64,000 nt of DNA from Sulfitobacter sp. F26169L (lineage in GTDB: Bacteria; Pseudomonadota; Alphaproteobacteria; Rhodobacterales; Rhodobacteraceae). Location of the stretch: NCBI RefSeq assembly GCF_026410285.1, contig NZ_JAPMLP010000004.1, positions 242-64,241 on the forward strand. The letters are read 5' to 3'. Made by a program: the position numbers and the translations under genes. The stretch's first letter is position 1; each line of letters begins with the position of its first letter. Positions 34,388-41,982 of the stretch are shown in pieces. The notes beneath the pieces were generated by a model. It was not told the DNA's origin and did no database searches. It worked only from the letters and a program-made list of their open reading frames with translations.

Positions 34388-35464
34388 ATGGCAAATCTTG
34401 ATGCTCAGGTTCGCGAATCCCAAGCGCAGGTCGCGCAAGCACAGGGCAAAATTGCCGAGCTGACCAGCCGGATTGAAACAGCGCGTGCAAAAATCAATGC
34501 AGGGGACGCGGCGGACATCGACATCGAAAATGCCTCTTTGGAAGATGTGCATGCCCATACCGAAGTGATGAACGCAAACATCGCCGAGCTGATCATGGGG
34601 CTTGACGATGTAACCGCAGGCTTTTCCCGCGATTTTGATGAAATGCGCTCCAAGACAGGTTGGGAAAGCGTTGTTGGCATCTTTTCTTCTGCCAAATCCG
34701 ACAGCATGCGCCAGGAGCGTGTGCGCTCTGCGTCCATCGACGACAAGCTTCAGGATCTGATCGCCAAATCCGACACCATTGTGCAATTGCTAGAAGGGCA
34801 GCTGGCCGTTCTGGAAGAACAAAAAGTAAAGGTAGAGTCCAACCTGACAGATACACTTAACGATCGCGAAATAACCGTGGCCGAGCTTGAATCCCTGCGG
34901 ACCGATATCGCCGCGATGGACCCCGAAATTATCAAGCTTGAGAATGCGATTGCCGGCGAAATGGACGCCGCCAAACGCACAGCGCTGGAGACAAAGTTGG
35001 CCGAGGCCAATGGCCGTTACAACAGCATGGTTCAGGACGAGCAGGTCAAACTTGCCAAGTCCCAAACGCTGGAACGCTATATCGACAAGGGCAAGACATG
35101 GGTGGACAGCCTGCAAAATCAGGCCGCCACGCAAATGGTGCTGATCAACAAGCTGCAAACAGACACCAAACAACGCGTTGTGCTGTATGATGCGCTGACC
35201 AAATCGCTGAAAACCGCACAGCAGCAGGACGTGGCCCACCGCATCAACGAAATCGGTGTGAAAACCGATCAGGAGGCGCAATCCGCAATGGCGGGAATCG
35301 GCTCTGCCACCAACGCGCGCATGGCCGAGATGATGGAAAAGCACGAAGATCACATGGTTTTTGCCCGTGAGGTGCTGGAGCAGAAGGCAAAGGCCGATGA
35401 ACGCTTTGCCCGCCGGTTTGCCAAGATCATCGAAAAGCACGACAGCAATGCGTATGGGGAATAA
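34388..35464 (+). CDS. Coiled-coil protein, first gene of AAA+ cluster
   Basis: A 358-aa soluble protein rich in Ala, Glu, Lys, Gln and Met, with long heptad-like helices at about residues 5-35, 115-240 and 280-350. There is no signal peptide or membrane segment. The region QAATQMVLINKLQTDTKQ followed by long helices is reminiscent of TelA (toxic anion resistance) proteins, but conserved positions are too few to assign it. As the first gene of an eight-gene cluster with an AAA+ ATPase and small membrane proteins, it may be a structural or adaptor partner. Function unknown. Confidence 0.85.
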   Translation: MANLDAQVRESQAQVAQAQGKIAELTSRIETARAKINAGDAADIDIENASLEDVHAHTEVMNANIAELIMGLDDVTAGFSRDFDEMRSKTGWESVVGIFSSAKSDSMRQERVRSASIDDKLQDLIAKSDTIVQLLEGQLAVLEEQKVKVESNLTDTLNDREITVAELESLRTDIAAMDPEIIKLENAIAGEMDAAKRTALETKLAEANGRYNSMVQDEQVKLAKSQTLERYIDKGKTWVDSLQNQAATQMVLINKLQTDTKQRVVLYDALTKSLKTAQQQDVAHRINEIGVKTDQEAQSAMAGIGSATNARMAEMMEKHEDHMVFAREVLEQKAKADERFARRFAKIIEKHDSNAYGE

Positions 35465-35684
35465 CGCACTGTTGCTGTCTGCGTTTTTCATTTTTCTCGT
35501 CTCTTTGGTATCGCTACTACGTTGCTATTACAAAGTATCGCGTTTGCATGGTGTGAAGTGGAATCTTGTGAATTTGCTTAATGAGCCTGAAATGCGCGTG
35601 CATCTTCGTCCTTTGATGTTGCCGAGCATCGCAATGCTCCTTTCTGGAAGCCTTTGGCTGTTCATATTGGAAAGTGGCGTATGA
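35454..35684 (+). CDS. Small two-helix membrane protein of AAA+ cluster
   Basis: About 76 aa with a helix near residues 5-20 (LLLSAFFIFLVSLVSLL) and another near 53-72 (LPSIAMLLSGSLWLFILE). It starts at ATG 35454 (or ATG 35448) inside the end of the coiled-coil gene and ends in ATGA overlap with the following gene. Composition is more AT-rich than its neighbours. Not recognised. Confidence 0.7.
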   Translation: MGNNALLLSAFFIFLVSLVSLLRCYYKVSRLHGVKWNLVNLLNEPEMRVHLRPLMLPSIAMLLSGSLWLFILESGV

Positions 35685-36799
35685 CCGATCCCGCCGCCGA
35701 TAACTACGATCTGGACGATACGTTCGCCAGCCGCCGCTATTTCGCCAAGTTCCAAGGCATCATGCAGCATATGTTGCGCGTGGCAGGTGTGATGCAGGCC
35801 GAAGGCCAGTTAACCCGCGAAGAGGTGACCATCCTTGCGCGCTATGCTGCCAGTTTAACGCATACGTTCCGTGCGCTTAGCTGGAAATATCTGTTGGTCG
35901 GCCGCAATACGGGCCGCTTTTTCGGCGCACTCACCATAGACGGGCGCGATAGCGGATTCCCCATCGCCGAAGAGTTGATGACTATGGCCAATGACGCGCA
36001 ACAGGCGCAGGTGCATCTGGGTGCATTGCCATCGGTTGAGGATCACAAAGATCGCATGGTTCAAGCAATCCTGAGTGATATGACCATACCGACAAAACTC
36101 CAGTTTAGTCTCTCGCAAAGGCTCTATTACGAGGAGTTGTTGAAGGGTGATCTGTTCTGGGTGCGCAACGATGCGCAGGCAGAATGGATGGGTGAGGCAA
36201 GCGGGCGTCGGAAATTCCGTTTGCATTGGGCCACCTATGACAGTCAGGTCAACCTGCCCGTTATTTACATGATGGAAGTCGAGGATTCAGGCGATGAGGC
36301 GTTGCCCCGCGATACTCGCCGCTGGCCGGAAGTACAGGCGCATCTGAGCGCGCAGGCGCTGGGCGCGCTGAAGTTGGTGACAATCGCACGGGGATTTGAC
36401 GAGGATTTTGACGAGTTGCATCCCAAACGCCTGCGCCGCTTTCACCTCGGGCCGATGTACAGCAATGCCTACACCCGTCAGAACGGCCCGTTGCGTGATG
36501 TGCTGGCCGAGGCGAAAGCGCCCGAAGGGCAGGACTGGGCCATGGTCTGGACCGAAGAAGAGCTGATCTCGGACCGCACGATTTCGGAAAAGTCGGGTTG
36601 GTTTTCGAAGGTAGAGCGGCAGATATTTGCGCTGGACCCGATGGGAGGGCAATTGCCCGACATGGGAGCCACCCGTACAGCGCGCAGCATTATTCTGCCC
36701 CAGCGCCCCTATCAGGTTCTGGAAGAGCATAACCCCCCCGGTTTCGCCGGTGTGCGCAAGTTTGTGGTGAGCGGGTCGGGCCGTGTGCTTCGTTATTGA
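35681..36799 (+). CDS. 372-aa uncharacterised soluble protein of AAA+ cluster
   Basis: No signal peptide or membrane helix. The N-terminal half is alpha-helical (FAKFQGIMQHMLRVAGVMQ, ARYAASLTHTFRALSWKYLL); the C-terminal half is mixed with many aromatic and Arg residues (RRKFRLHWATYDSQ, LRRFHLGPMYSNAYTRQNG, FAGVRKFVVSGSGR). No known domain recognised. ATG 35681 overlaps the preceding stop. A short repeat element follows the stop, then the ATPase gene. Presumably a partner or client of the ATPase; this rests only on position. Confidence 0.85.
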   Translation: MTDPAADNYDLDDTFASRRYFAKFQGIMQHMLRVAGVMQAEGQLTREEVTILARYAASLTHTFRALSWKYLLVGRNTGRFFGALTIDGRDSGFPIAEELMTMANDAQQAQVHLGALPSVEDHKDRMVQAILSDMTIPTKLQFSLSQRLYYEELLKGDLFWVRNDAQAEWMGEASGRRKFRLHWATYDSQVNLPVIYMMEVEDSGDEALPRDTRRWPEVQAHLSAQALGALKLVTIARGFDEDFDELHPKRLRRFHLGPMYSNAYTRQNGPLRDVLAEAKAPEGQDWAMVWTEEELISDRTISEKSGWFSKVERQIFALDPMGGQLPDMGATRTARSIILPQRPYQVLEEHNPPGFAGVRKFVVSGSGRVLRY

Positions 36800-36827
36800 T
36801 GTCGTCTGCTGCCCCGATGTCGGAATT

Positions 36828-36850
36828 GGATATTTATGGCCAAAAGAAAT
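36828..36850 (+). repeat. Dispersed intergenic element, copy 2 (core only)
   Basis: GGATATTTATGGCC followed by AAAAGAAAT, without the upstream GC hairpin. It lies 29 bp after the stop of the 372-aa gene and 32 bp before the ATPase ATG, in the same orientation as copy 1. Confidence 0.7.
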
Positions 36851-36882
36851 AGGCCCACCGTGAAAATTGAGGAGACGGGACC

Positions 36883-38817
36883 ATGAGCCAGACGTTGGAC
36901 AAGATGGAATTGCGCGAGGAAGATATTGCCAAGCATCTGGGCGTGGCGCAGGCGCTGATTGAAGGGTTTGACCATGCACCGCGGATTGGTAAGACGGTTG
37001 AGCCGGTTGCGGCAGAGCGATCTGCCGGTCTGGGAACGCGGCGGCGGTTCCGTTCCACTACGCCGGGGCTGGTGACGCAGCGGCGGGTGGCATCAGGGGC
37101 CGTGCAACTGCTGGCGCGGGTTGAAAGTGTGGACGGTGATGACGCGCTGATGTCGCCGTTGCAGGCAACAGTGCTGCATGCGGTGCGGCGTGCGATCGCG
37201 ATTTCCCTCGCCGTGGCGGAGAATTTTGCCGGGCAATCAGCTTTGGGTGATTTGAAACGCGCCAATCTGGAAGGTGCCTTACCCGCCGCGCGCAAGACGG
37301 AATTTGGCGAGTTGTTGGCGGCTGAAGCGTTGGTCACGTTGTATGTGCTGGGTAATGCGATTGCTTATCTATTATCCCCGCATCTGGGCGAGATGAGCGT
37401 AGAGGTCGGCGATGTCGAGGAAGTGTTGACCGACAACGGGCAGACAGCTTTGCATGGGGCCTTGTGGGAGCTGGACAATGATATTGCCACGCACGCCACG
37501 GATGATCTGCGGCTGGTCGCTACGGTCAGTGCCTTTGCCGAAGCGTTGATGGAAAAGGTCGCGTTGCGCGCGGCCAGCGCCCCGCGGCTGGAGGCTTTCA
37601 GGACTGCCGCGTGGCATGTTGCGGCGGATGATTTTACCGTTCAGGGATTTACCCCCGCAGCAAAGGCCAAATCGACCACCCTGACCATGACGTTCAAGAA
37701 GCCCAACGAAGTGGTTGGCAACCATATCGCAAAATACCAATCGATGAAGCTGGCCAAAATGCTGATGGCCTATGACTTTGACCGCCGCCTGAACCCTTTT
37801 GCGGAACTGGGCGGGTTTATCTTTACCTTCATGGGCGATGGCGCGCCGGGCACGGGGAAAACCACGCTGATCCAGATGATGGCGGGGTTGATATCGGAGT
37901 ATTGTAACAACGCCGATTACCCGTTCCGCTATCAGAACCTGAGCACGGATAACATCGACAGCTATCAGGGCAAATCCGGCCAGAACGCCAAGGCGTTTAT
38001 CAACAACATCATTGATCCCTCGGTGATCGGCTTTGGCACCATCGACGATATTGACCAACTGGCGGGTAAACGGGGGGATCGTCAATCATCGGCAGGGCAG
38101 TTGGAGATTACCGCCGTGCTGATGGAGAGTTTTGCGGGCGCAAATACCGTGGTGCGCGGGAACTGCACGTTTGGCATGTTCTCGAACTATCCCGAAAACG
38201 TGGATGATGCCCTGCGCCAGCGCGCCGGTGCGCGGTTTCTGGTGGACGGGCCGCAGACGCGCGATGACTACGTTGATATCCTCTATCTGCTGATGGGCAA
38301 AAACCACGATATCCCGCTGGGCGATCACACGGTATTCGAGGCGCAGGCGATCAAAAAAGCGGTTGCGGCATCGTTTGCGGGACACTTAAAACCGCATGAA
38401 GCGGGGCTGTTGAGCGTGTATGAGGATGTGCAGGCTAAAATCGGGGCGCTAGATACGATCAACAAACTTGGGACGTACCTTAAGGCGATTCAGGAGGCCG
38501 ATCCGCGCTTCACCGGCCGTGCGATCAAGAACATCACCGATGCGGTGAAAGTGCGCGCGATGGATTTCGAGCTGCCCGATGAATGGATGGAGCAGCCGGA
38601 CCTGTTCTTGTTCAAAGACTATGACACCAAGAAAGCGATGATTGAGGACATGCGCCAGCCGATCACAGTGGATATGGTGGTGCAGGAGATCAACCGCTAC
38701 GCGGATTCAGAGTTCCGCTATGCCGATAAGTCGGATGAGGTCGCGATTGAGGGGATGGTTCGGGATATGGGGCGGAGTGTTGAGGCTAAGAAGCGGTATT
38801 TAGGGGGTGAGGTATGA
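36883..38817 (+). CDS. AAA+ ATPase of uncharacterised cluster
   Basis: A 644-aa protein. The N-terminal approximately 300 residues are helical and unrecognised. The AAA module has Walker A GAPGTGKTT (about 321-329), Walker B GFGTIDDIDQ (about 384-393), a sensor-1-like Asn in FSNYPENVDDALRQ and an Arg finger in RQRAGARF (about 444-451). A C-terminal helical lid and extension follow. This is a classical AAA arrangement, so hexameric and ATP-driven remodelling is expected. No protease, helicase or transmembrane segment is present. It is the only obvious enzyme in the cluster and probably its motor. GAGGAG precedes ATG 36883; the stop overlaps the next gene as ATGA. Confidence 0.92.
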   Translation: MSQTLDKMELREEDIAKHLGVAQALIEGFDHAPRIGKTVEPVAAERSAGLGTRRRFRSTTPGLVTQRRVASGAVQLLARVESVDGDDALMSPLQATVLHAVRRAIAISLAVAENFAGQSALGDLKRANLEGALPAARKTEFGELLAAEALVTLYVLGNAIAYLLSPHLGEMSVEVGDVEEVLTDNGQTALHGALWELDNDIATHATDDLRLVATVSAFAEALMEKVALRAASAPRLEAFRTAAWHVAADDFTVQGFTPAAKAKSTTLTMTFKKPNEVVGNHIAKYQSMKLAKMLMAYDFDRRLNPFAELGGFIFTFMGDGAPGTGKTTLIQMMAGLISEYCNNADYPFRYQNLSTDNIDSYQGKSGQNAKAFINNIIDPSVIGFGTIDDIDQLAGKRGDRQSSAGQLEITAVLMESFAGANTVVRGNCTFGMFSNYPENVDDALRQRAGARFLVDGPQTRDDYVDILYLLMGKNHDIPLGDHTVFEAQAIKKAVAASFAGHLKPHEAGLLSVYEDVQAKIGALDTINKLGTYLKAIQEADPRFTGRAIKNITDAVKVRAMDFELPDEWMEQPDLFLFKDYDTKKAMIEDMRQPITVDMVVQEINRYADSEFRYADKSDEVAIEGMVRDMGRSVEAKKRYLGGEV

Positions 38818-39641
38818 AGAAGTCCTCAAATAGCGAGGTGAGCCATACGCTATTCTTCTGCTTTGTTCTTCTTGTAGTTTTAGGGCTTCCTTCCTTCTAC
38901 ATGCTTTATGTCTCAGGGTTTTGGGTTGAATTCCTGAATCTTGATCTAAACGAGAAGGGCGATACACTCGCTGGGATATTTGGTTCGCTTGCTTTTGTAT
39001 CTGCCACCATAGCGATTATTCTGCAGTCGTTCGAGTTGCGAGCGCAACGAGAAGAGTTGCGATTGACCCGAAATGTTATGGATGAGCAAAAGAAAGCTAC
39101 TCAAGAGATGGCTAATTCAATGGCTGTACAAGCCGATATTTTTGCAGACGAGCAGATGCAACGTGCGGAGAACCGAAATGATATAATCTTAGAGCAAAAG
39201 GTGCGGCTGTTTATTGATATGGCAACTTACTATCGAGACCAATTGGAATTCCAATTTAGTGTATCTGGTCTCACCGTAAAAAGTAGAGATGAGGTAGTTG
39301 TTGTTACACAGACGAGTCCTACCGTTGGAAAGATATTTCTTCTACGAGAGACTCTAGATAAAATGAGCTTGGAAACAGTAGTTCAAAAAATTTCAGAAGA
39401 TATTTTCTATGTTCAATGGCTACTAGAAAGAATTGAAAAAGCTGATTTTATAATAGTTAGGAAGCCAAGAAATCCGAAACGACTTCAAGAACTAATTTCT
39501 GCAATCAGGGACATTATGGCGTTAGAACCAACTCTAGGCGATGCAGGAAAAACAAGGCTGTTTAGATTGAGGATAGCGAGGATAGACGATTACCTTAACA
39601 AAATTAACGACAGCCAAGTGTGGGGTGAAGTTGATGGATAA
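38814..39641 (+). CDS. AT-rich, probably acquired membrane/coiled-coil protein inserted in AAA+ cluster
   Basis: A 275-aa protein with two N-terminal helices (about residues 10-35 and 50-70) and then a charged coiled coil reading LQSFELRAQREELRLTR. That signature recurs in putative phage abortive-infection and other defence-associated membrane proteins. The cytosolic C-terminal half is helical and unrecognised. Base composition (roughly 40% GC by eye, with AGA, ATA and TTA codons) differs sharply from both flanks and returns to normal at 39701. The ATG overlaps the ATPase stop (ATGA). Transfer into the operon is the simplest explanation; a defence role is inference. Confidence 0.8.
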   Translation: MKKSSNSEVSHTLFFCFVLLVVLGLPSFYMLYVSGFWVEFLNLDLNEKGDTLAGIFGSLAFVSATIAIILQSFELRAQREELRLTRNVMDEQKKATQEMANSMAVQADIFADEQMQRAENRNDIILEQKVRLFIDMATYYRDQLEFQFSVSGLTVKSRDEVVVVTQTSPTVGKIFLLRETLDKMSLETVVQKISEDIFYVQWLLERIEKADFIIVRKPRNPKRLQELISAIRDIMALEPTLGDAGKTRLFRLRIARIDDYLNKINDSQVWGEVDG

Positions 39642-39700
39642 AAACTTGTTTGTATCAGAATTTGGATGTGTTTGGTACTACTTGATCGTATCCTATTAAG

Positions 39701-41068
39701 ATGAACCGCCTCATCCGCGCCGGCCTGATGTTCGGCAACCTTTTCCATGTCCACTCGCCCACTTTGGTGGAGCGGTATAATCGCGCGCTGCACCACCTCA
39801 CGGGCAAACGCACCGCGCTCACCGATTTTTACATCGACATTTCCGGCTACTCCCCCGAGATCGGCGACGAGTTGAATGATCCGCTTTACCTGAACCACAA
39901 GGGCGTGAACCGGCAGTTTATTCTGCTGGGGATGGAGCAGCGCACGGCACCTTTGCTGAACGCGAAATTCTCGACCTCGAAAACGGTGTTGCAGGATTTC
40001 ATCGCGGAGAACGAGGCGGCGTTGTTTGCCCTGACCGCCAAGGATGCCGTTGCGGGAGAGTTGGTGAACTCGGTCTATGACGTGTCCTCGCCCAAGCGGT
40101 TGTTTGATATCCGCCGGATCACGATTGATGCCGATACCACGGGCGGCACGGTGAAAGACGCGGCCAAGCTGGCGGATATGGTGGATAAATTCCGCGATAC
40201 CGACGGCGGCTGGTACGATGATGTGCTGATTGCGCAGATGATCGACCTTGCGGGAAAAACCGGCGATGTGGTGCGCAACCCTGTCAGCCTGAAGGCGATG
40301 CGGTTTAACCAGCGTAATTTCTGGACCGCACATTTTGGCGGCTTGTATGTGTTTCAGGATGTGCCGCACCCCGCCGTGATTGCTCCGGCGGGCAAGGATG
40401 GGCTGGAGGATATCCCGCTTGAGTATGTATTCGACGCCACCCAGCGCAACAGGATTGCGCAGTTTTTCCAGCTTAACGGTCTGACCGAAACAATACTGGA
40501 GGCGCGGGGCATCAAATCGGCGGCGATCCTGCGGCAGAAAATGGATTTCATCCTGATTGATGCGGTGGCGGATCAGGGTGTTGACCTGACGGGCCTTGCG
40601 CGCAGTGATCTGCGGCGTCTGGCGCGCCAGCACAGTGATAAGCTGCCGCCGGAATTCCACACGCTGGGGCAGTTGGTTAACTGGGCCGAGGATGGCGGCG
40701 CATTTCCGATGATTGACAGCGCCGATCCGGTCTATTTCTACACCCTGCGCGCGGCGGATACGCCCGATGCAGAGCTGGTGAATATGCTGCTGGCGCAACT
40801 GGCGCCCAAGGATATCCGCCAGCTGTTCATCTGCCACAAAGACCTGTTCTACAGCACCTATGCCGCGTGGCCGGATGCAAAGCGCGCCTATGTTGCCGAT
40901 TTTCTGGAGCGCGAGTACAAGGTGGACAAGGCAGGTGTGCGTGACGCACTGTTCGGGCATGAGCCCGCGCTGGAGGTGCCACCGCTGCCGCGCAAACGCA
41001 AAAAACCGCCGCCCGTGCCAGACCGCATTGCCGCTGTCGGCCCGTGGGGTGCGGTAAGGAGGAGATAG
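39701..41068 (+). CDS. 455-aa uncharacterised protein of AAA+ cluster (DUF6638-like)
   Basis: A soluble protein with an N-terminal segment FGNLFHVHSPTLVERYNRAL and LTDFYIDISGYSPEIGDEL, which I associate with the family named DUF6638 (from memory, not verified). A central DVPHPAVIAP region and a Lys/Arg/Pro-rich tail (PRKRKKPPPVP) follow. No catalytic motif was found. There is almost no Shine-Dalgarno before ATG 39701 (CTATTAAG), consistent with its native upstream region having been displaced by the AT-rich insertion. Likely a core partner of the ATPase. Confidence 0.85.
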   Translation: MNRLIRAGLMFGNLFHVHSPTLVERYNRALHHLTGKRTALTDFYIDISGYSPEIGDELNDPLYLNHKGVNRQFILLGMEQRTAPLLNAKFSTSKTVLQDFIAENEAALFALTAKDAVAGELVNSVYDVSSPKRLFDIRRITIDADTTGGTVKDAAKLADMVDKFRDTDGGWYDDVLIAQMIDLAGKTGDVVRNPVSLKAMRFNQRNFWTAHFGGLYVFQDVPHPAVIAPAGKDGLEDIPLEYVFDATQRNRIAQFFQLNGLTETILEARGIKSAAILRQKMDFILIDAVADQGVDLTGLARSDLRRLARQHSDKLPPEFHTLGQLVNWAEDGGAFPMIDSADPVYFYTLRAADTPDAELVNMLLAQLAPKDIRQLFICHKDLFYSTYAAWPDAKRAYVADFLEREYKVDKAGVRDALFGHEPALEVPPLPRKRKKPPPVPDRIAAVGPWGAVRRR

Positions 41069-41071
41069 GTT

Positions 41072-41338
41072 ATGGCAGCACTTGTCCGCCTGATGGTGAT
41101 CGGGTTTATCGTGCTCAGCGTGATTTACGTCTGCCTGTCGTTGTATTCCCGCGCGGTGCGCAAGGGCAAGCTGCGCGCAGAGTGGTATGATGGGCCACAG
41201 GATCAGCCGCTTGAGACGTTTCTGGACGAGGGGCTTGAAGAATATGACAAGTCCCTGCGTCGCAAATTGATCCTGTCGGTCTATGTCATTCCGGTGATCC
41301 TTGTGTCAGTGGTCATCTACCTCACGAATTTTAGTTAA
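41072..41338 (+). CDS. Second small two-helix membrane protein of AAA+ cluster
   Basis: An 88-aa protein. Helices lie at about residues 5-25 (LMVIGFIVLSVIYVCLSL) and 65-85 (LILSVYVIPVILVSVVIYL), with a charged, acidic loop of 40 residues between (FLDEGLEEYDKSLRRK). AGGAGGAGA precedes ATG. It starts 3 bp after the previous stop. Possible membrane anchor for the cluster; not recognised. Confidence 0.8.
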   Translation: MAALVRLMVIGFIVLSVIYVCLSLYSRAVRKGKLRAEWYDGPQDQPLETFLDEGLEEYDKSLRRKLILSVYVIPVILVSVVIYLTNFS

Positions 41339-41349
41339 AAGGGGGCCAC

Positions 41350-41982
41350 ATGCTGGGTCTTATCCGTTGGACATTCTGGATCACCGTTTGGGTGATCATC
41401 GCCGCGTTCTTTCATTACACGTTGCCGCAGGTGGATATTGTTCGCATAACCGACACCTACGAAAAGCGTGTCGATCCGGGTGAAAACAGCCTGTTCTGGG
41501 CGCAGGCCGATATCGGCACCGATGGCACCCTATCCACCCGCGATGTGTTCTTCATCCAGACCCGTCTGGCAAAGGGCAAGGTGATGGTCTACCGCAACGA
41601 AGATACGGGATGGGGCTGGCCGCCGTATTTCAAATTCGACACGTCGAACCTGCAGGCCGAAGCAAGCGATTTCCGCTCGACCGAGGCTGATCCGCGCTAT
41701 GTGGCCATCAAGCACTATGGCTGGCGCAATGAATTCCTGACGATCTTTCCCAACGCTATTTCGGTGCGTCAGGTTTCCGGGCCCGACGCGTCCAAGGGCA
41801 TCCCGTGGCTCAACATCTTTATCATCACGATCTTCCTGACCGTCGTGTACGGGGTCTGGGTGCGCTGGCGCCGGTTCCGCATCGCGCGGATTGATCCGAA
41901 AATGGAAGCGATCGAGGATGACCTTTCGGAAAAAAGCAGCGCTATGAAAGGCTGGTTGGCGACGTGGCGTAAAAAGCCCTAG
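41350..41982 (+). CDS. DUF1523-type membrane protein of AAA+ cluster
   Basis: A 210-aa protein: an N-terminal helix (residues 5-25, then HYTLPQVDIVRITDTYEKR), a periplasmic domain of about 125 residues with many aromatics (GWGWPPYFKFDTSNLQ, HYGWRNEFLTIFPNAI), a second helix at about 158-175, and a cytosolic tail. The HYTLPQ.DIVRIT motif is that of the DUF1523 family, whose function is unknown. Last gene of the cluster; no hairpin terminator before the convergent HIT gene. Confidence 0.85.
   Translation: MLGLIRWTFWITVWVIIAAFFHYTLPQVDIVRITDTYEKRVDPGENSLFWAQADIGTDGTLSTRDVFFIQTRLAKGKVMVYRNEDTGWGWPPYFKFDTSNLQAEASDFRSTEADPRYVAIKHYGWRNEFLTIFPNAISVRQVSGPDASKGIPWLNIFIITIFLTVVYGVWVRWRRFRIARIDPKMEAIEDDLSEKSSAMKGWLATWRKKP

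Follow-up and report, generated by a model that had tools for sequence, protein, structure and literature searches.

A conserved AAA+ ATPase operon of Sulfitobacter and its relatives with exchanged membrane partners and a swapped gene slot, possibly a modular immune machine

We examined a stretch of 64,000 nucleotides (the window) from Sulfitobacter sp. F26169L (contig NZ_JAPMLP010000004.1 of assembly GCF_026410285.1), which contains an operon built around an AAA+ ATPase, and found that a conserved four-gene core is accompanied by membrane partners and interposed genes that differ between genomes. Eight open reading frames (ORFs), all present as first described, lie on the plus strand between 34388 and 41982. 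Here we refer to them, in order, as A, B, C, D, X, E, F and G. A (34388..35464) encodes a 358-aa coiled-coil protein, B (35448..35684) a 78-aa two-helix protein, and C (35681..36799) a 372-aa protein, as counted from the ATG at 35681 (for the profile searches, the 371 aa from 35684 were taken). D (36883..38817) encodes the 644-aa AAA+ ATPase, the motor of the core, X (38814..39641) a 275-aa two-helix protein, E (39701..41068) a 455-aa DUF6638 protein, F (41072..41338) an 88-aa two-helix membrane protein and G (41350..41982) a 210-aa DUF1523 membrane protein. The genes are as tightly packed as the sequence-only reading of this DNA had claimed: the start of B lies within A and the B stop codon (TGA) overlaps the ATG of C, the ATG of X (38814) overlaps the TGA of D by 4 bp, and gaps of 3 bp and 11 bp separate E from F and F from G. 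A family cut-off was reached only by D (Pfam AAA, 2.9e-11), E (PF20343, 1e-220) and G (PF07509, 2e-67), and by no Pfam or NCBIfam match of A, B, C, F or X. D alone belongs to a family of known activity, as had also been noted from the sequence, and its nearest named relatives are Sulfitobacter loci. X (GC content 0.40 vs 0.57) showed no family match in Pfam or PADLOC and has no second copy in its own genome.

The genes were searched by tblastn in 91 loci, many of which are too short to hold all of them, which accounts for many of the absences. Matches were found for A in 83 loci, C in 90, D in 91, E in 87, and F and G in 74 each; B matched in one locus, the window's own, and X in 16 including the window's, mostly over part of its length. 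Thus, the core does not consist of the seven genes first proposed but of A-C-D-E, joined by F-G in Rhodobacteraceae, with B and X filling two variable slots, slot 1 between A and C and slot 2 between D and E. The old A-C-D-E core was found in Rhodobacteraceae, Rhizobiaceae and Vibrio. X had been correctly recognized as a gene inserted between D and E, while the swapping of both X and B from genome to genome had been missed. Since these genes keep the same company in several families and in two classes, and no characterised system was matched in Pfam, NCBIfam or PADLOC, their treatment as one system stands.

Among 394 genomes of the family, PF20343 (E) was detected in 173 and D (E-value <= 1e-30) in 165; both were present in 164, E only in nine, D only in one and neither in 220 (phi 0.95). 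D and E are thus together in 164 of the 174 genomes positive for either, and completeness is below 80% in six of the nine with E only. A search of four genomes, one of which proved to hold an ordinary operon, found E elsewhere in the other 3, whose D locus was without it, and in genome G309 A-C-D and E-F-G lie at separate places (L185 and L186), with E-F-G on another contig. These cases indicate that the tie between D and E outlives the loss of linkage. A 1.6-kb gap was also seen between C and D in G309. E was present in 26 of 398 genomes of a phylum-wide draw, and D in 7 of 385 genomes class-wide.

In all 11 loci tested for it, a DUF2333 gene lies directly behind E and replaces F-G; one of them is S. 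meliloti pSymB, and the other ten were taken as Rhizobiaceae because their closest named matches are Sinorhizobium, Rhizobium and Shinella. Two Vibrio megaplasmids (L168 and L169) carry A-C-D-E adjoining mfd, with a D 39% identical to that of the window and 48 bp between D and E, and no tblastn match to F, DUF1523 or DUF2333 was found in these two stretches. D was not found in any phage record, and its 10 matches in the plasmid collection lie on replicons of at least 0.88 Mb, all typed as non-mobilizable. Of the 66 operons whose upstream sequence extends beyond 5 kb, 37 have an aldehyde dehydrogenase gene (at least 65% identity) upstream, which indicates an inherited location that many operons have in common.

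For the analysis of slot 2, whose genes we call cargo, an operon was a locus with distinct D ends and E starts. The resulting operons are not a random sample, and 80 loci came from a scan of nearest relatives, among the matches listed. The duplicate pair L094/L150 was removed in the counts on 111 operons; some other counts (the gap medians other than that of D-E, strand bias and F/G outside matches) used 112. A slot ORF was any plus-strand reading frame of at least 70 aa, called mechanically, and spurious ones are probably among them. The D-E gap had a median of 648 bp and exceeded 300 bp in 90 of the 111 operons; median gaps were 64 bp for C-D (up to 834 bp), 0 for E-F (maximum 40 bp) and 8 bp for F-G (maximum 28 bp). 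Among 91 slots measuring 300 bp or more, 82 had a longest plus-strand ORF that exceeded the longest minus-strand one (p 8e-15; medians of 194 aa vs 75 aa), and the GC content of the slot was below that of D in 69 of 83 (0.517 vs 0.588). A same-strand ORF was present in 96 of the 111 operons, and the 125 slot ORFs formed 48 clusters, 45 of which contain an ORF of at least 95 aa and 30 of which are singletons. Within the 96 filled operons, the first slot ORF overlaps the D stop by 4 bp in 48 and the last overlaps the E start by 4 bp in 59, and the seams are tight (-4, -8 or -1) at both slot ends in 35; in the cargo-less operons L107 and L108, D and E themselves overlap directly by 4 bp. The repeated 4-bp overlaps indicate that differing genes occupy one ATGA seam.

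When D was at least 95% identical and cargo was present on both sides, 97 of 111 pairs carried different cargo families and 14 shared one; the cargo differed in 42 of 61 filled pairs at a D identity of 90–95% and in 58 of 93 at 85–90%. Of the closest pairs, 102 belong to what we refer to as the Ruegeria group, 17 loci chosen by D identity (94–97%), 14 of which are named Ruegeria and three are not (L039, L041 and L047). Cargo families differed in 95 of these pairs and were shared in 7, and the 17 operons carry 14 cargo families.

The cargo scan covered 71 of 127 ORFs, with a control of 71 drawn from 85 flanking ORFs. At 1e-3, Pfam identified DUF559, putAbiC and AbiJ_NTD4 three times each, Mrr twice, and DUF3825, DUF2971 and DUF4145 once each. 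The cargo matches included Mrr_cat (1.7e-32), DUF559 (7.6e-33), putAbiC (5e-20), AbiJ_NTD4 and DUF2971/PDC-S31; two Ruegeria loci, L044 and L046, carry Mrr and AbiJ cargo, respectively. PADLOC matches were to Mrr/type IV restriction, AbiP, PDC-S31, PDC-S37, Hhe, HNH and HEPN types, with one or two members each. The control ORFs matched four PADLOC families, with one member each, and 54 Pfam families; among the 25 listed, metabolic, flagellar and regulatory ones prevail. By PADLOC alone the difference is modest; in the kind of Pfam family it is clear. The recognizable cargo, a minority, appears to be of nuclease, HEPN-like or abortive-infection type (Mrr, DUF559, AbiJ and putAbiC).

Cluster 6 cargo has an R-x4-H motif twice, both invariant, and cluster 4 cargo an invariant R-x5-H; motifs of this kind are typical of HEPN RNases. 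The cluster 4 family was found in 6 of 179 genomes, one of which (G066) is the genome of its seed, L062. Among the five non-seed genomes, the copy lies exactly between D and E in two (G040 and G111), upstream of a fragmentary E and F-G in G097, and away from the operon in two (G169 and G068). A HEPN-like cargo relative was observed outside the operon at L182:8794-9585, directly behind another gene, presumably one for a nicotinate phosphoribosyltransferase. In cluster 0, to which X belongs, 15 of 18 members have a common 40-aa membrane/coil module with 56% mean identity; X carries the GDTLAG membrane/coil module common to other cargo. The C-terminal parts of this cluster are mostly unrelated, with a score of at least 80 in 3 of 91 comparable pairs (the other 14 of the 105 pairs, those with the 108-aa ORF of L022, had no such part). 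In the pSymB slot of S. meliloti Ak57 (L170:10079-13306), a DUF559 endonuclease is followed by an opposite-strand ISRm16 transposase before E. The slots of four Rhizobiaceae loci (L110, L111, L114 and L137) contain recurring repeat-like ORF translations beside or replacing DUF559.

In slot 1, the A-C gap had a median of 219 bp and was above 200 bp in 55 of 95 cases. Its contents are mostly small membrane-type ORFs, which in other loci differ from the B of the window. The 73 slot-1 ORFs include an artefact cluster of 18, an alternative frame of the end of A, and one weak match (9.8e-5) connects the ORFs of slot 1 with those of slot 2. Slot 1 of L020 holds two ORFs (88 and 93 aa) which, by eye, form a putative ParD/ParE-type toxin-antitoxin pair.

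The median identities in the 17 Ruegeria-group operons were 96.9% for A, 96.0% for C, 95.5% for D and 90.1% for E, and 60.3% for F and 67.7% for G; the conservation of the core equals that of the flanking genes. An outside match better than that to some group member was found for F in 17 of 17 and for G in 16 of 16, vs 0 of 17 for each of A, C, D and E. F and G each split into three groups, with nearly identical groupings, and the largest F/G group comprises 10 operons with 10 different cargo. The region of G between its two membrane helices, which is probably periplasmic because positive residues follow helix 2, showed 50.8–98.3% identity within the Ruegeria group and up to 79% to Sulfitobacter. 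For the second helix and tail, the medians were 81.5% within the group vs 59.6% between it and Sulfitobacter. G is single-copy in all six genomes checked, which points to allelic exchange and not paralogy. A hidden congener was also considered as the cause of the F/G pattern and was excluded, as E, by which the set is defined, had no outside match above 80%.

What we take to be the Walker A and Walker B motifs and the arginines of the second region of D are invariant in 13 aligned sequences, including those from Vibrio. The Walker B is DD, not DE, in all 13, and the features of an AAA ATPase were found. The AlphaFold2 model of C (predicted local distance difference test score, pLDDT, 88) showed a helical N half and a beta-rich C half, and the model of E had a pLDDT of 82; fold searches with these two models gave no usable fold match.

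The cluster matched no described system in Pfam, NCBIfam, PADLOC or the literature searched, in line with the sequence-only reading, which had been unable to place it. The likeness to Ter/Tel drawn in that reading lies in a coiled-coil protein within a membrane-linked stress-type operon, but it does not extend to homology: Pfam gave no PF05816 (TelA) match for A at E <= 1, A was rejected as a TelA homologue by profile comparison (hhalign probability 0.3–0.4%), and a separate TelA gene (PF05816, 5e-106) lies elsewhere in the window's genome (G000:C11:68253-69245). Cyclic oligonucleotide-based antiphage signalling systems (CBASS) with a TRIP13-like AAA ATPase have interchangeable effectors in the operon, including membrane proteins and nucleases. 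The operon is like them in that an AAA ATPase shares it with interchangeable genes, and differs in that none of the 8 window proteins matched a CD-NTase cyclase or HORMA (Pfam, NCBIfam and PADLOC; E <= 1) and D resembles TRIP13 over the AAA domain only. A cytoplasmic coiled coil, an AAA+ ATPase and small membrane proteins are shared with the phage shock protein (PSP) system and with bacterial AAA+/PspA operons, as these are presented in part of PMC11237479; however, no Pfam match to PspA/Snf7, PspB, PspC or Toastrack was obtained for the 8 window proteins at E <= 1. Variable defence genes at one conserved position are described, in the relevant parts of the two sources, for P2/P4 phage hotspots (PMC9122126) and for core defence hotspots of P. 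aeruginosa (PMC10250203). The present slot shares with these the principle of a constant site whose contents vary. Unlike those hotspots, as those parts present them, the slot mostly spans one to three small genes and is set, with translational seams of 4 bp, in a chromosomal operon of uniform orientation, and no mobile-element carrier (prophage, satellite or mobile island) of a defence hotspot was found. The diversifying nucleoside triphosphate (NTP)-dependent conflict systems, as outlined in part of PMC7159879, are similar in concept, with a conserved NTPase core and diversifying effectors.

At the sequence level, the operon combines a conserved core, a swapped slot, translational coupling, recognizable cargo of a certain type and exchange of F/G alleles; the motor core is inherited vertically and its ends are exchanged. 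As the genes in the slots of B and X are swapped, the recognizable cargo is defence-like and F-G is polymorphic, the likelier role shifts from envelope stress to immunity. Of the envelope or stress machine suggested earlier, the membrane-linked AAA+ operon is thus retained, with envelope stress still a possible role. A variable sensor, a constant NTPase and a variable effector are together the imprint of an arms race in immune systems. We suggest, with a probability of roughly 0.47, that the operon encodes a modular immune machine, probably anti-phage, which is inherited vertically and is made of a polymorphic periplasmic sensor, an AAA+ transducer and an exchangeable effector. G, with F, would be the sensor in the inner membrane, and its periplasmic domain would be kept polymorphic because the invader-linked signal that it meets varies. 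The A-C-D-E assembly, powered by D, would transduce the signal by remodelling a partner, and the slot-2 gene would be the effector that is released or activated by it. Such effectors would be of the HEPN-like RNase, Mrr/DUF559/HNH nuclease, AbiJ or putAbiC type, or membrane proteins, and the outcome would be abortive infection or nucleic-acid cleavage. More tentatively, the operon may represent an undescribed class of immune machines, in which the A-C-D-E transducer works with interchangeable membrane sensors (F-DUF1523 or DUF2333) and slot effectors, the sensor domains and cargo recombining between genera and the motor descending vertically.

Several findings weigh against an immune role. Unlike most defence systems, the operon lies on the chromosome, is strongly conserved and often keeps its synteny. 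No core gene matched PADLOC as a dedicated defence family, and the match of D to TRIP13 is weak (4.4e-6) and limited to the AAA domain (residues 319-459). No slot ORF of at least 70 aa was found in 15 of the 111 operons, which, along with the 48-bp gap in Vibrio, suggests that the core does something without cargo. Pfam identified about 14 of the 71 scanned cargo ORFs and left about 57 without identification (second Pfam models are taken as the same members, and the per-member tallies were made by hand from matches counted per family). PADLOC matched roughly 8–12 of the 71, vs at most 4 of the 71 flanking controls, a modest excess; the Pfam matches to HNH (L068) and HEPN (L026) are below cut-off, and small membrane proteins without a known role make up many of the cargo. 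Cargo turnover is near-complete chiefly in the Ruegeria group and is slower elsewhere, where 7 of 9 filled pairs with D at least 95% identical share a family. The two smaller F groups, with 7 operons between them, carry cluster 2 cargo in 4, and the largest, with 10, carries it in none, so the F/G type is possibly not wholly independent of the cargo, with a partial link between them.

Cargo-less operons, small membrane cargo and fast turnover in one group keep alive a doubtful but by no means negligible alternative, that the operon serves envelope maintenance or stress (A-C-D-E and a clade-specific membrane partner) and that its D-E and A-C junctions capture and co-express defence-like or orphan genes, the 4-bp seams being selected only to keep E translated. 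It accounts for the core without slot ORFs, in Vibrio as elsewhere, for the upstream aldehyde dehydrogenase and for a core no less conserved than its flanking genes, and it is in line with the cargo family found also outside the operon in 2 genomes and with the C-D junction, which at times holds up to 834 bp too. However, the E-F and F-G gaps never exceeded 40 and 28 bp in 86 operons, and the two slots are joined by that one weak family match, 18 of the slot-1 ORFs being artefact. A rare HEPN-like family lying exactly in the D-E slot in 2 of 5 non-seed genomes also argues against mere capture, as does a membrane module common to different cargo, and the exchange of F/G alleles would be left unexplained.

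That exchange, a polymorphism shared across genera, would also suit a role in competition or kin recognition, where the cargo would be self-directed or delivered toxins and F/G the recognition or immunity proteins, diverse between neighbours. The nuclease and HEPN-like cargo and the partial link of F group with cluster 2 cargo are compatible with this, but 10 different cargo within one F/G group of 10 operons indicate that F/G is not a matched immunity for each cargo, and we consider such a role unlikely. Still less likely is a mostly non-functional slot, at which ORFs, some of them spurious, would be captured at random in a permissive junction. The large share of singletons among the clusters and the spurious look of some ORFs in GC-rich slots fit it; the strand bias, the recurring 4-bp seams, the conserved catalytic-type motifs and the recurrence of cargo families in distant hosts do not.

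If the operon is an immune machine, one slot would offer a ready catalogue of effectors (48 clusters in 111 operons, most without annotation) and an easy place to seek new defence genes. It would also provide a natural test both of trans-genus polymorphism of an inner-membrane protein in bacteria and of the way in which a single motor can drive effectors that are unrelated. If the junctions of an envelope operon capture genes instead, the locus would still clearly exemplify a conserved operon that acts as a small landing slot for defence genes.

As a minor observation, two genes at L027:13790-16284, which we take to be flagellar hook-associated genes, have diverged in this and 15 of the 16 other Ruegeria-group loci (medians 73–75%), and their neighbours show 93%.

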